Shown one piece after another: positions 5,392-54,115 of a stretch of 64,000 bases of DNA. Below the pieces are notes generated by a model. That model did not search any database, was not told the DNA's origin, and saw only the letters and a program-made list of their open reading frames with translations. Every line of letters begins with the position of its first letter. The first letter of the stretch is position 1. The stretch lies in the NCBI RefSeq assembly GCF_001898325.1, contig NZ_MKTR01000016.1, forward strand, positions 95,181-159,180. The letters are read 5' to 3'. The position numbers were made by a program, and so were the translations under genes. The stretch is from Microbacterium sp. 67-17. GTDB taxonomy: Bacteria > Actinomycetota > Actinomycetes > Actinomycetales > Microbacteriaceae.

Positions 5392-6291
5392 ATGCAGTTG
5401 AGTTCGTTTCCGATCATCGGCATCGCGCTTGCCGTGCTGTCGGCGGCGCTGCTCACTGTCGGAAACCACCTCCAATCGGTCGGGGTCGAACGGGCCAGCG
5501 GTGGGGGCTCACGGCGCCTCGGTGTCGCGGGTTTCTGGGCCCTCGCGAGGACGCCCGTTTGGCTCCTCGGGTCTGTGTTGTTCGGGCTGGCCATTCTCGC
5601 GCAACTGGCTGCTCTCGCTTTCGCCCCGCTTATCGTCGTCCAGCCGGTGGGAGTGATCGCGCTCGTTTTCGCTTCTGCGCTCACCGCGGTCGTCACGCGC
5701 CGCCCGCCTCGCCGCCCCGAAATCGTGGCGATCGCGGTCGCCGTGGTGAGCCTTGCCGCGTTCGTCGGAGTGGCCGCGGCTGTGAGCGTGCAGACAGCGA
5801 TCACCGATCGCGAGCTCATCCTGATCCTCATCATTCTGCTCGTTGTTCTTGCCGCGACCTTCGCGACTCTTGCGCTGATGCGGCGCCGCGGCATCCCGCC
5901 CGTTGCCTATGTCGTGCTCGGCGGGCTGTTCGCGGGATTCGTCGCAACCCTCGGCAAGACCGTCATCCTCCGTGTCCAGACCGCGTGGGCGTCGCAGGAC
6001 TTCGGGATCGACGACACAAACCTGCTGACGATCGCGTGCCTGATCGGGATCGCTGTGGCCGGCGCGCTGTCGATCTACTTCGTGCAGACAGCCCACACCG
6101 TGAGCAACCCGCAGACAGTTGTCGCGGGGCTCACGATCGTCGACCCCTTCGTTGCAGTCATCCTCGGAATCACGGTGCTCGGCGAAGCAGCCGGCGCGCC
6201 GCTGTGGAGCTTTGGCGTGTTTGCGGTTGCCGGCGCCGGTGCCATGTGGGCGGTCTGGCGACTGGCCTCGATCACCCGGCCGTCGCGATGA
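5392..6291 (+). CDS. DMT-superfamily (EamA-like) membrane transporter
   Basis: A 299-residue, very hydrophobic protein with about nine to ten membrane helices and short loops. It starts with a helix (IIGIALAVLSAALLTVG) followed by NHLQSVGVER, the pattern of actinobacterial DMT-family proteins. The internal two-halves arrangement suggests an EamA-type duplicated fold. The ATG is preceded by a purine-rich GGGGGA. Monocistronic by spacing. Substrate unknown; family members export metabolites or drugs. Confidence 0.7.
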   Translation: MQLSSFPIIGIALAVLSAALLTVGNHLQSVGVERASGGGSRRLGVAGFWALARTPVWLLGSVLFGLAILAQLAALAFAPLIVVQPVGVIALVFASALTAVVTRRPPRRPEIVAIAVAVVSLAAFVGVAAAVSVQTAITDRELILILIILLVVLAATFATLALMRRRGIPPVAYVVLGGLFAGFVATLGKTVILRVQTAWASQDFGIDDTNLLTIACLIGIAVAGALSIYFVQTAHTVSNPQTVVAGLTIVDPFVAVILGITVLGEAAGAPLWSFGVFAVAGAGAMWAVWRLASITRPSR

Positions 6292-16969: not shown

Positions 16970-17064
16970 GGGAAGCTCTCCGCGCGGCGGCATCCAGGCC
17001 AACTCCCCCAGGACGGAAACGTAGCAAGGGTAACCAGGCTCTGCCGGGTGCGCGGAGAGTCTTA
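16970..17064 (+). ncRNA. ffs: signal recognition particle RNA, small bacterial type
   Basis: A roughly 95-nt hairpin RNA. The terminal stem GCTCTCCGCGC pairs with GCGCGGAGAGT. The conserved apical domain reads CCAGGACGGAAACGTAGCA: a GGAA tetraloop flanked by the asymmetric bulge nucleotides that bind Ffh. It is followed by a T-rich TTACTTTTAT that may end transcription. It lies between the divergent moxR and pta genes. Confidence 0.93.
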
Positions 17065-17107
17065 CTTTTATCCGGCACCTCGCCTGCGCCGCTCCCGGGC
17101 TCGCGCC

Positions 17108-33932: not shown

Positions 33933-34002
33933 GTCGGGGTGCGCCCCAGGGCCACTCCACGCGCCGCTTCGCGTCGCGCGGAGCCTCGGGCGCTGGGGGC
34001 CC
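33933..34002 (-). repeat. tRNA-associated hairpin element, copy 1, with tRNA-Pro 3'-end copy
   Basis: Read on the minus strand, 34002-33944 is a 59-bp imperfect palindrome starting GGGCCC and ending TGGGG. It aligns without gaps to 50305-50363, with 46 of 59 bases identical. It is followed at 33941-33933 by CACCCCGAC, a copy of the tRNA-Pro acceptor 3' end (34074-34066). Confidence 0.6.
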
Positions 34003-34017
34003 GTTAGTCACCGCGAT

Positions 34018-34064
34018 CATTGTCTTGCGGGAGCCGATCTGTGGTCGACTCCCGCAAGACAATG
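34018..34064 (-). terminator. 16-bp perfect hairpin after tRNA-Pro
   Basis: CATTGTCTTGCGGGAG (34018-34033) is perfectly complementary to CTCCCGCAAGACAATG (34049-34064), with a 15-nt loop. It starts 2 bp beyond the tRNA 3' end. There is no T-tract after it on the transcribed strand, so it may serve in 3' processing as well as termination. Confidence 0.65.
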
Positions 34065-34066
34065 CG

Positions 34067-34140
34067 TCGGGGTGACAGGATTTGAACCTGCGGCCTCGTC
34101 GTCCCGAACGACGCGCGCTACCAAGCTGCGCCACACCCCG
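34067..34140 (-). tRNA. tRNA-Pro (anticodon CGG)
   Basis: On the minus strand the acceptor CGGGGTG pairs with CACCCCG, discriminator A, CCA not encoded. The D arm is GCGCAGCTTGGTAGCGC, the anticodon loop TTCGGGA gives anticodon CGG, and the T arm GCAGGTTCAAATCCTGT is canonical. Confidence 0.95.
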
Positions 34141-50162: not shown

Positions 50163-50235
50163 GCCACCTTAGCTCAGACGGCAGAGCGATTCACTCGTAA
50201 TGAATAGGTCAAGGGTTCGATTCCCTTAGGTGGCT
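50163..50235 (+). tRNA. tRNA-Thr (anticodon CGT)
   Basis: Acceptor GCCACCT/AGGTGGC with discriminator T, CCA not encoded. The anticodon arm is ATTCA-CTCGTAA-TGAAT, giving anticodon CGU. T arm AAGGGTTCGATTCCCTT is canonical. Confidence 0.95.
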
Positions 50236-50249
50236 CTGAACGAGAAGAG
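50218..50249 (+). repeat. 32-bp direct repeat, copy 1 (tRNA-Thr 3' end)
   Basis: Begins CGATTCCCTTAGGTGGC in the T arm and runs to GAACGAGAAGAG in the left arm of the downstream hairpin. It is identical to 50365-50396. Confidence 0.85.
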
Positions 50250-50279
50250 ACCGTCCGCAGGGCGGCCTGTTCTCGTTCA
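50237..50279 (+). terminator. hairpin after tRNA-Thr
   Basis: TGAACGAGAA (50237-50246) pairs perfectly with TTCTCGTTCA (50270-50279); an inner CCGTCC/GGGCGG stem extends it. No T-tract follows. Confidence 0.65.
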
Positions 50280-50304
50280 TCGCCCGAGGAGCGAACCCTT
50301 GGGT

Positions 50305-50396
50305 GGGCCCACGCCGCCGGGGACTCCGGGCGCCGCGTAGCGGCGGCTGGAGTGGCGGTGGGGACGATTCCCTTAGGTGGCTCTGAACGAGAAGAG
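50305..50396 (+). repeat. tRNA-associated hairpin element, copy 2, with tRNA-Thr 3'-end copy
   Basis: 50305-50363 is a 59-bp imperfect palindrome (GGGCCCAC...GTA loop...GGTGGGG) aligning gap-free with the copy after tRNA-Pro. It is followed at 50365-50396 by an exact 32-bp copy of the tRNA-Thr 3' end. The ribosome-binding site of the next gene (GAGGAG) begins within the last bases of the copy. Confidence 0.7.
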
Positions 50397-51808: not shown

Positions 51809-54115
51809 ATGGGTCCAGTGAAAGAGCGTCTGCGTCCGTCGCGGTGGTTGCGAATCGGCATCCCCGCACTTCTCGTCCTGATCTGGGTCGGGGTGGGCTC
51901 GGTCGGCGGACCCTACTTCGGAAAGGTCGACGAGGTCGCCAGCAACGACCAGTCGAGCTTCCTCCCGGAGAGCGCGGACGCAACGCGCGTGGCCGAGCGA
52001 CTGCCGGATTTCTTGGGTGACGAAGCAATTCCTGCCGTCCTCGTCGTCACGGGCGACGGTGAGCTCACCGATGACCAGCTCGCCGAAGTGCAGACCCTTG
52101 TCGACGAGATCGCGGGCATCGACGGTGTGCTTGATGGGGTATCGCCAGCGGTGGTCTCGGATGACGGTGAAGCGGTTCAGGTCTTCATCCCGATCGACTC
52201 GTCGGGTGAAGTACGCGAGATCGTCGAAGAAATCCGCACTCTCGTCACCGACGAGCTGCAGGCTCCGCTCGAGGGGTGGGTCACCGGGCCGGCCGGATTC
52301 ACCTCCGACCTCGTCAAGGGCTTCCTCGGGATTGACGGGCTGTTGCTGATCGTCGCGCTGGTGGCGGTGTTCGTCATCCTGGTGATCGTCTACCGATCGC
52401 CGCTGCTGCCGATCCTCGTGCTCATGACCTCGACCTTCGCGCTGACCGTCGCGCTCTTGGTCGTATGGTGGCTCGCCTACGCCGGCGTGTTCGTCCTCAA
52501 CGGTCAGGTTCAGGGCATCCTGTTCATCCTCGTGATCGGTGCGGCAACCGACTACGCGCTGCTCTATGTCGCGAGGTTCCGAGAGGCGATCGGCGAGGGT
52601 GAGCCCCGATGGAACGCGACCCTGCGCGCCTGGAAGGGATCGTTCGAGCCGATCCTCGCGTCGGGCGGCACGGTCATAGCTGGTCTGCTCATCCTGCTGC
52701 TGTCCGACCTTGCGACCAACCGGGCTCTCGGGCCCATCGCTTCGATCGGTATCGCGTTCGCAATGCTCTCTGCCCTCACCTTTCTGCCCGCGCTGCTCGC
52801 TCTGTTCGGTCGCGCGGCGTTCTGGCCGTTCATCCCGAAGCACGGCCTCGCGGAGCTTCCCGATGACTTCACCAAGCCGGTCAAGGGATTCTGGCCACGC
52901 CAAGCGCGACTCATCGCACGCCGCTCGCGCCCGGTCTGGATCATCACGACGATCGCGCTGCTGGTGGCAGCACTCGGTGTCACCCAGTTCAAAGCGGATG
53001 GCGTGGCATCCAGCGACCTTGTCCTGGGATATTCCGAGGCTCGAGACGGGCAGGATGTTCTCGCCGAGCACTTCCCGGCAGGCTCCGGTAGCCCCGTGTA
53101 CGTGATCGTTCCCGAGAGCGAGCTTGCCGCCGCGGTCACGATCCTCGACGACAGCGCCGGGATCGACTCGGTCTCCGTCGCCTCCGAGGACTCACCGAGC
53201 GGACAGGCCCCGGTGTCGGTCGAGAACGGGGAGCCGGTCTTCACGGCCTTCGGGCCGCCGGGTACTCCGGCCCCGAGTCCCACCGTCTCGGACGGCGACG
53301 TGCTTGTGATCGCGACGCTGACGGATGCCGCGGACTCGGTCGAGGCCGAGCAAACCGTGCGCGACCTTCGCGTCGCATTCACCGACGAGCTCGGCGACGG
53401 TGTCGCGCTGGTCGGCGGTGTCACAGCGACGGATGTCGACTCCAACGACACCTCGATCCGTGATCGCACTGTCATCATCCCGATCGTGCTGGTCGTCATC
53501 CTGCTGATCCTGATGCTGCTCCTGCGGGCCGTGGTCGCGCCGGTCCTGCTGATCCTCACGGTTGTCGTGTCGTTCGGCTCGGCTCTCGGTGTCAGTGCGC
53601 TCGTCTTCGACTACGTCCTCGGATTCCCGGGCGCAGACCCGGCCGTTCCGCTCTATGGGTTCGTGTTCCTCGTCGCCCTCGGCGTCGACTACAACATCTT
53701 CTTGATGTCCCGCGTGCGAGAGGAGTCACTCGTGCACGGGACGCGGCGCGGCATCCTGCGCGGCCTCGTGGCAACCGGCGGCGTCATCACATCCGCTGGG
53801 CTCGTGCTTGCCGCGACCTTCGCGGCGCTCGGGGTCATCCCGATCCTGTTCCTCGCACAACTCGCGTTTATTGTCGCGTTCGGTGTGCTGCTCGACACCT
53901 TCGTCGTGCGGTCCCTGCTCGTGCCCGCACTGGCGTATGACATCGGGCGGGCGATCTGGTGGCCGTCGAAGCTCTGGCGGCGCGGACCCGAAGTGGTGGG
54001 CACGGTTCGCGACCCGCGATCGGCTGAACCGGTGGAGGCGACCCTGCTCGAGGGCGACTCGCAGCCCCTCAGCCGTCGCGCACTGCGCGAGGCCCGGGAT
54101 TCCGACGACGGGTGA
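51809..54115 (+). CDS. MMPL family RND transporter
   Basis: A 768-residue transporter with two copies of the MMPL unit: one helix, an extracytoplasmic domain (about 40-170), then a group of helices; repeated from about 375. The signature VIGAATDYALLYVARFREAI and its second-half counterpart ALGVDYNIFLMSRVREESL carry the buried aspartates used for proton coupling. Actinobacterial homologues export lipids or drugs. The start is leaderless-like. No adjacent TetR regulator is seen. Confidence 0.92.
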   Translation: MGPVKERLRPSRWLRIGIPALLVLIWVGVGSVGGPYFGKVDEVASNDQSSFLPESADATRVAERLPDFLGDEAIPAVLVVTGDGELTDDQLAEVQTLVDEIAGIDGVLDGVSPAVVSDDGEAVQVFIPIDSSGEVREIVEEIRTLVTDELQAPLEGWVTGPAGFTSDLVKGFLGIDGLLLIVALVAVFVILVIVYRSPLLPILVLMTSTFALTVALLVVWWLAYAGVFVLNGQVQGILFILVIGAATDYALLYVARFREAIGEGEPRWNATLRAWKGSFEPILASGGTVIAGLLILLLSDLATNRALGPIASIGIAFAMLSALTFLPALLALFGRAAFWPFIPKHGLAELPDDFTKPVKGFWPRQARLIARRSRPVWIITTIALLVAALGVTQFKADGVASSDLVLGYSEARDGQDVLAEHFPAGSGSPVYVIVPESELAAAVTILDDSAGIDSVSVASEDSPSGQAPVSVENGEPVFTAFGPPGTPAPSPTVSDGDVLVIATLTDAADSVEAEQTVRDLRVAFTDELGDGVALVGGVTATDVDSNDTSIRDRTVIIPIVLVVILLILMLLLRAVVAPVLLILTVVVSFGSALGVSALVFDYVLGFPGADPAVPLYGFVFLVALGVDYNIFLMSRVREESLVHGTRRGILRGLVATGGVITSAGLVLAATFAALGVIPILFLAQLAFIVAFGVLLDTFVVRSLLVPALAYDIGRAIWWPSKLWRRGPEVVGTVRDPRSAEPVEATLLEGDSQPLSRRALREARDSDDG

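Follow-up and report, generated by a model that had tools for sequence, protein, structure and literature searches.

The stretch that we analysed, hereafter the window, comprises 64,000 nt of Microbacterium sp. 67-17 (GCF_001898325.1, NZ_MKTR01000016.1:95,181-159,180, forward strand). On its minus strand, an intact tRNA-Pro(cgg) (34066..34140; ARAGORN and Rfam-type tRNA calls, acceptor pairs 7/7) is followed by a terminator-like hairpin (34018..34064), a 59-bp structured hairpin that we call H (34002-33944; alignment, fold and a covariance model score of 70.2 bits) and CACCCCGAC (33941-33933), found by repeat comparison to be a 9-bp copy of the tRNA-Pro acceptor strand. The original prediction had given this same order, and it was right. 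It had also placed a 16-bp perfect hairpin behind the tRNA; a hairpin is indeed there (34064-34018), but with 20-nt arms that are 95% complementary. By inspection, the CACCCCGAC copy begins at tRNA position 66, that is, at the T-stem/acceptor junction. A whole Pro cassette made of acceptor strand, terminator, spacer, H and a final GGGGCG would occupy 33942..34074 of the minus strand, and the 3' part of tRNA-Pro(cgg) would be the end delivered by it.

The second copy lies on the plus strand, behind an intact tRNA-Thr(cgt) (50163..50236; tRNA calls and acceptor pairing). After a terminator-like hairpin (50237..50279) comes a small hairpin, ACCC-TT-GGGT (50295..50304), placed directly before H (50305..50363; alignment, fold and 77.1 bits); by eye, variants of this small hairpin are present at other loci. 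Repeat comparison found behind H a 32-bp copy, missed until now, that is identical to the tRNA-Thr 3' end together with the left terminator arm (50365..50396). The whole Thr cassette would measure 147 bp (50218..50364, plus strand), from C56 in the T-loop of the tRNA to the final A of GGGGA. Elsewhere in the window there is an ordinary Bacterial small SRP RNA (16971-17067) and a 101-nt tRNA-Arg(acg) called by ARAGORN (52009-52109), which falls below the threshold of the Rfam tRNA model and may be false or unusual.

The Pro and Thr copies of H align without gaps at 46 of 59 identical positions, both fold into hairpins, with loops GAA and GTA, and positions 25 and 43 form a C-G pair in one copy and a G-C pair in the other, all of which agrees with the prediction made from the two copies. 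That compensatory swap had been taken as a hint of selection on the fold, and the larger alignment bears it out strongly: among 60 copies (58 distinct), 18 of the 24 pairs have changed on both sides. In this alignment 92.4% of the cells pair, against at most 54.3% when it is slid, and none of 500 shuffles reached the observed pairing values. The slid controls weigh more than the shuffles, because relatedness among sequences can by itself exceed shuffled values and because the model had been used to fit the alignment. G-U pairs are retained in most copies of H (49/58 at one pair), and they point to the tRNA-sense strand as the one that would fold.

Using the Pro copy as sole BLAST query against its own genome, we found seven further places at E<1e-6, each of which follows a tRNA 3' end. 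For six of them ARAGORN calls the tRNA (Gly-ccc, twice in tandem, Leu-caa, Leu-taa, Gly-tcc and Met), and the seventh follows a displaced half of tRNA-Glu. The Thr copy of the window was absent from these BLAST rows and was recovered by a covariance model. This model, R1, gave 12 matches in the 3.14-Mb genome, of which 11 were strong. Nine of the strong copies stand behind intact tRNAs (Gly-ccc twice, Tyr, Gly-tcc, Leu-caa, Thr, Leu-taa, Met and Pro-cgg), L046 holds the copy at the displaced half of tRNA-Glu, and L051 a copy within a dnaE-like gene; the weak twelfth match (E 0.75) is behind tRNA-Pro(ggg), and a truncated H is found behind tRNA-Arg(ccg) (L010). Since R1 and the second model, R2, were both built from tRNA-linked copies, the linkage counts that they give are biased upward, while the BLAST result with the Pro query is free of that bias. 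If 60 tRNAs in 3.5 Mb are assumed, any one match would have a same-strand tRNA end in the 120 nt before it with a probability of about 0.001, and the linkage of H to tRNAs in this genome is thus confirmed to be beyond chance.

Further copies, which the prediction had proposed to seek with a covariance model, are widespread in the genus. At E<=0.001, R1 gave 114 matches in 34 of 59 genomes, about a dozen of the weakest being left out of locus retrieval, and at E<=1e-8 R2 found the element in 116 of 366 genomes. A family sample searched at 1e-5 had matches in 18/199 genomes and 13/85 genera, own genus included, and in an order sample the matches came from 14/396 genomes, all 14 of the same family (the 396 include family members). 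One exact pattern retrieved 25 stretches, in records of Microbacterium and Protaetiibacter and in one unclassified Actinomycetota assembly. No copies were detected in plasmids or phages with one blastn query each, or in IMG/VR with one exact pattern. Searching the window at Rfam gathering scores reported three tRNAs and the SRP RNA and no family for H; two short stretches searched at E<=1 gave a tRNA and matches far under their gathering scores, again with no H family. In the literature that we searched, we found no description of H or of the cassettes described below. According to these results, H belongs to a real, structured, tRNA-linked family with a well-supported anatomy, unreported as far as that literature goes.

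For 46 of 107 genus matches of the covariance model, a same-strand tRNA lies no further than 200 nt upstream. The link to tRNA 3' ends within 200 bp that had been proposed therefore holds for these, but it is not universal, since a tRNA is called in the 400 nt upstream of 52 of the 107, and the other 55 have none there. Most of the unlinked matches are weaker: the tRNA-linked share is 22/26 above 70 bits and 5/25 at 40-50 bits. In the family search, 21 of 23 loci (two of which adjoin within one locus and one of which is from the own genus) have a tRNA within 160 nt, as do, within 500 nt, 37 of 48 further high-scoring genus matches (53 minus 5 duplicates, from the best-scoring part of the R2 matches listed for the 366 genomes).

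What is repeated behind these tRNAs is a gene-free cassette of about 150 bp, which consists of a tRNA 3' end from the T-loop, a terminator, some 30 nt, H and GGGGA. The 59-bp hairpin had been put forward as the element; it is a tRNA-linked structure, but the unit is larger and includes the tRNA 3' end and the terminator. An exact repeat of at least 14 nt starts just 3' of H in 35 genus matches, and its first copy lies 72-107 nt before H in 32 of them and 209-326 nt before it in the other three. The mean distance for the 32, computed on distances of 60-115 nt only and so leaving out these three, is 91.8 (sd 6.5). In 65 of 78 units, chosen from the matches as a tRNA-linked subset, the sequence right behind H repeats 13 or more of the 17 nt that start at C56, with 18 isoacceptors represented (19 have any tRNA within 400 nt); 53 units, with 16 isoacceptors, keep 16 or 17 of the 17. 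The downstream tRNA copy mostly starts at C56 or G57, and the commonest joins among the 65, with a slash at the junction, are GGGGA/C (25), AGGGA/C (11) and TGGGG/A (9). A copy of the tRNA end behind each element, as first supposed, is thus usual but fails in 13 of the 78; by eye, four of these 13 (two Pro, two Arg) have the copy at the acceptor strand, and in the remaining ones it is diverged or missing. Many copies, strong ones mostly behind tRNA 3' ends, a tRNA-end copy as the usual companion and the marked covariation of H lend good support to the early guess that this is a mini-element targeting tRNAs.

Upstream of the cassettes the tRNA stays whole, as its acceptor stem keeps 7/7 pairs in 76 of the 78 units and 6/7 in the other two, both Met tRNAs. 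Cassettes are single or form arrays of two to four units, and in the arrays displayed the distal unit has H cut or absent. The array at L083 has four units, with terminators that alternate in type and a decayed last unit, and two or three hairpins each are found at L125, L118, L085, L041, L303, L304 and L318. At L162 (G218:C16), a tRNA-Ser cassette has two hairpins per unit and is followed by a second unit. When each hairpin was paired with its nearest neighbour in sequence, 30 of 60 neighbours shared the tRNA amino acid (shuffled mean 8.6, maximum 18, 200 shuffles) and 7 of 60 came from the same genome (shuffled mean 2.7, maximum 9). Hence, cassettes mostly keep to their own tRNA type, by descent or transfer; the clustering by tRNA also fits vertical inheritance with loss.

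To compare occupied and empty sites, we took the best 30 loci each for Pro-cgg and Leu-caa from the 59 genomes, with the tRNA in reach in 27 and 20 of them. H was present at Pro-cgg in 1/27 of these loci, that of the own genome; the relatives mostly carry another, shorter terminator-like hairpin instead of the 34018..34064 type, and then the same gene. At Leu-caa, H was present in 2/20 (the own genome and L256), and another occupied Leu-caa locus (L063, G019) lies outside those 20. L243 and L267 had been flagged as carriers by a loose regular expression and were dropped after a negative result with the covariance model. At L256 (the same locus as L067), the upstream copy has a new terminator and the downstream copy has, by eye, the type of several empty relatives. 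More generally, the post-tRNA regions of copies 1 and 2 are at least 80% identical in 20/48 units and less than 60% identical in 7/48, and by eye 12/48 units have two different good terminator-like hairpins in the two copies (L041 second, L056, L064, L067, L079, L083, L091, L107, L108, L116, L125 second and L152). Two tRNA-Gly loci of one genome (L064 and L091, G045) share nearly the same terminator pair in copies 1 and 2, which hints that the two loci have exchanged sequence.

One could argue that H simply inserts at the T-loop through a staggered cut of about 90 nt, by transposition or target-primed reverse transcription, and that the repeats are duplicated target. The own genome has identical copies of 97 bp at Leu-caa, 85 bp at Tyr and 78 bp at Met, which taken alone would fit such a duplication, although they fit recent tandem events or gene conversion as well; besides, the right junction is precise, more so than the left, and the conserved G-U pairs would suit an RNA. 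Yet copies 1 and 2 carry different terminators at many loci, including L256, where the new one is upstream. Also against it, part of the small pre-H hairpin recurs in the second Tyr copy, and a search for reverse transcriptase (RVT_1) gave nothing in the own genome and matches in 6/59 genus genomes. The comparison of L256 with empty loci and the terminator differences between copies led us to drop simple target-site duplication. Loci of the L256 type oppose staggered-cut duplication as a general rule, which we consider very improbable, while single loci could have arisen in that way. The arrangement looks instead like the arrival of a cassette with its own tRNA end and terminator.

We therefore favor an integrative explanation, at about an even chance of being correct: the cassettes, about 150 bp long and devoid of genes, would form a family whose members insert into tRNA genes, either at the T-loop or at the T-stem/acceptor junction. 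Each would bring a tRNA 3' end from C56, its own terminator, a spacer and H, whose terminal GGGGA imitates the 5' strand of the T-stem. Insertion would proceed by site-specific recombination of the H junction (GGGGA/CGANTCCC) with the T-arm sequence (GGGTT/CGANTCCC) of a tRNA gene that is still whole; the incoming end would rebuild the tRNA, and the old host 3' end and terminator would be pushed downstream. Arrays would result from repeated insertion. A recombinase presumably acts in trans, an excised circular or single-stranded form would have to exist, and the choice of strand is likewise presumed. Some observations speak against an integrative origin: no enzyme was found, plasmids, phages and IMG/VR gave no copies in the searches above, 13 of the 78 units lack the tRNA copy at 13/17, and units with post-tRNA regions at least 80% identical (20/48) outnumber those below 60% (7/48). 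Moreover, some downstream copies contain part of H or match the upstream copy over 85-99 bp, and a tandem duplication by RecA would also give these. A stricter version, in which the tRNA T-arm would be the landing site, the folded strand of H the recombination site, the recombinase that of the host or a borrowed one, and the tRNA end and terminator the sole cargo, is a speculative proposal that we regard as doubtful.

The T-loop and the T-stem/acceptor junction are established integrase subsites according to the Islander work (PMC4383910), so a borrowed integrase or Xer would be our leading guess for the mover. A search with PF00589 gave four matches in the own genome, none of them in cassettes, which by reading are XerD-like, XerC-like, an island integrase at tRNA-Glu and a fragment. 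No cassette recombinase was found among these tyrosine recombinases, nor with Y1 transposase and RVT_1 across the genus. The Y1 transposase occurs in 1/59 genus genomes (G041), which has no element match, and the presence of RVT_1 in six genomes did not follow that of the element. Neither RAYT nor reverse transcriptase is thus a likely driver. The phage-type integrase L167 is probably not the T-loop agent either: it adjoins tRNA-Glu, and the putative displaced half starts in the anticodon region. Together with this integrase, the tRNA-Glu at L278 (9421-9496) and L046, where the displaced tRNA-Glu 3' half bears a cassette, suggest that tRNA-Glu was split in its anticodon region by a genomic island.

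The main rival of the integrative cassettes needs no dedicated recombinase: a mobile palindrome, H, would land behind tRNAs, its GGGG end would pair with the CCC of the T-stem or acceptor, a template switch by the polymerase would copy the tRNA end in tandem, and RecA exchange between strains would shuffle terminators and arrays. That no enzyme was found suits this scheme, and so do the long perfect repeats at some loci and the presence of H away from tRNAs, partly inside protein genes. By eye, the junction often forms a GGGA-N3/4-TCCC mini-hairpin, and in the two Pro tRNAs of the genus it moves to the acceptor CACCCC/CATCCC; Pro-ggg of other genera, however, uses the T-loop (L151-L153). Against it, most of the 65 units, across 18 isoacceptors and several genera, join at one T-loop spot; the two bases before C56 are mostly GA, where simple priming on the T-arm would copy TT; and a crossover confined to about 21 bp would be required to place the host-type terminator downstream of a new one at L256. 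We regard this enzyme-free route as possible, but doubtful.

Regarding the copies away from tRNAs, 4 of the 55 non-linked matches end in tRNA-type sequence (L046, L070, L128 and L130) and were set aside, which left 51 for analysis. The copies away from tRNAs show none of the long repeats that mark the tRNA-linked ones. Of these, 42 lie in an open frame with at least 60 aa on both sides, a figure to be read knowing that high GC opens many frames. Among 12 frames that we scanned, H falls within a DNA polymerase III alpha domain in one case and within the HAD-type domain of an E1-E2 ATPase in another. The former is in the own genome (L051, G000:C12:158464-158528), with H apparently in frame. The E1-E2 ATPase frame of G703 bears two copies of H, one of them apparently in frame inside the HAD-type domain, and another H-bearing long open frame has no Pfam match; L302 of G703 contains copies at 1690-1754, 2606-2670 and 6189-6253 that belong to a sister group of the hairpin. 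The in-gene copies as a whole may be seen as such a sister group, one that resembles Rickettsia palindromic elements and merits separate study. We know of no counterpart to the tRNA cassettes among Rickettsia palindromic elements or in-gene MITEs. The likeness would lie in some of the non-tRNA copies, which appear to sit in frame inside protein genes as those elements do (PMC10969869).

Other known systems offer partial parallels. REP elements, mobilized by RAYT transposases, are likewise short covarying palindromes in many copies, and a new REP-like family had been an early suggestion; in its strict, RAYT-driven sense this is not supported, as no Y1 transposase was found in the element-bearing genomes among the 59 of the genus, and, unlike REPs, these units include tRNA ends and some copies lie within genes. 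Integron gene cassettes are also small arrayed units with a folded site at the 3' end and a single landing site that heads the array, but the units described here hold no gene and their landing site is the tRNA T-arm. The R''/R' boxes of attC sites follow RYYYAAC..GTTRRRY. By eye, they were not seen in the alignment of H, where GTTGGGC is possible at the left end with no paired RYYYAAC. No integron integrase was recognised among the four PF00589 matches of the own genome.

The closest likeness is with the tRNA-targeting integrative elements and genomic islands treated in the Islander work (PMC4383910), which bring a tRNA 3' end, leave the target whole with a displaced 3' fragment downstream, cross over at the T-loop or the T-stem/acceptor junction and form tandem arrays. 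The cassettes could be what is left of ordinary islands or prophages that had entered tRNA T-loops and later lost all genes, displaced tRNA ends at these subsites being island hallmarks in that same source and tandem arrays being known for islands at such sites. We find this improbable: the cassettes have a uniform gene-free size and the same H at many tRNA types, H covaries as a hairpin, and an unsystematic look at the fetched flanks (about 0.6-1.5 kb a side) showed no island with genes that ends in H. The lone longer case seen, at L070, holds a degenerate IS (173-1501), whose transposase-like gene separates the terminator of a tRNA-Glu cassette from its hairpin. Unlike tRNA-targeting islands, the cassettes are about 150 bp long without genes or integrase, end in a covarying hairpin and occupy many tRNA species per genome. 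Since Islander tests island candidates for an integrase gene (PMC4383910), a finder of this type would not report them.

If the integrative reading is correct, this would be a very small gene-less integrative unit that exploits the same conserved region in many tRNAs, and a natural setting in which to study hairpin-based recombination and the way in which elements change from one tRNA target to another. Should the stricter cassette-system version be true as well, tRNA ends would be exchanged between strains as modules.
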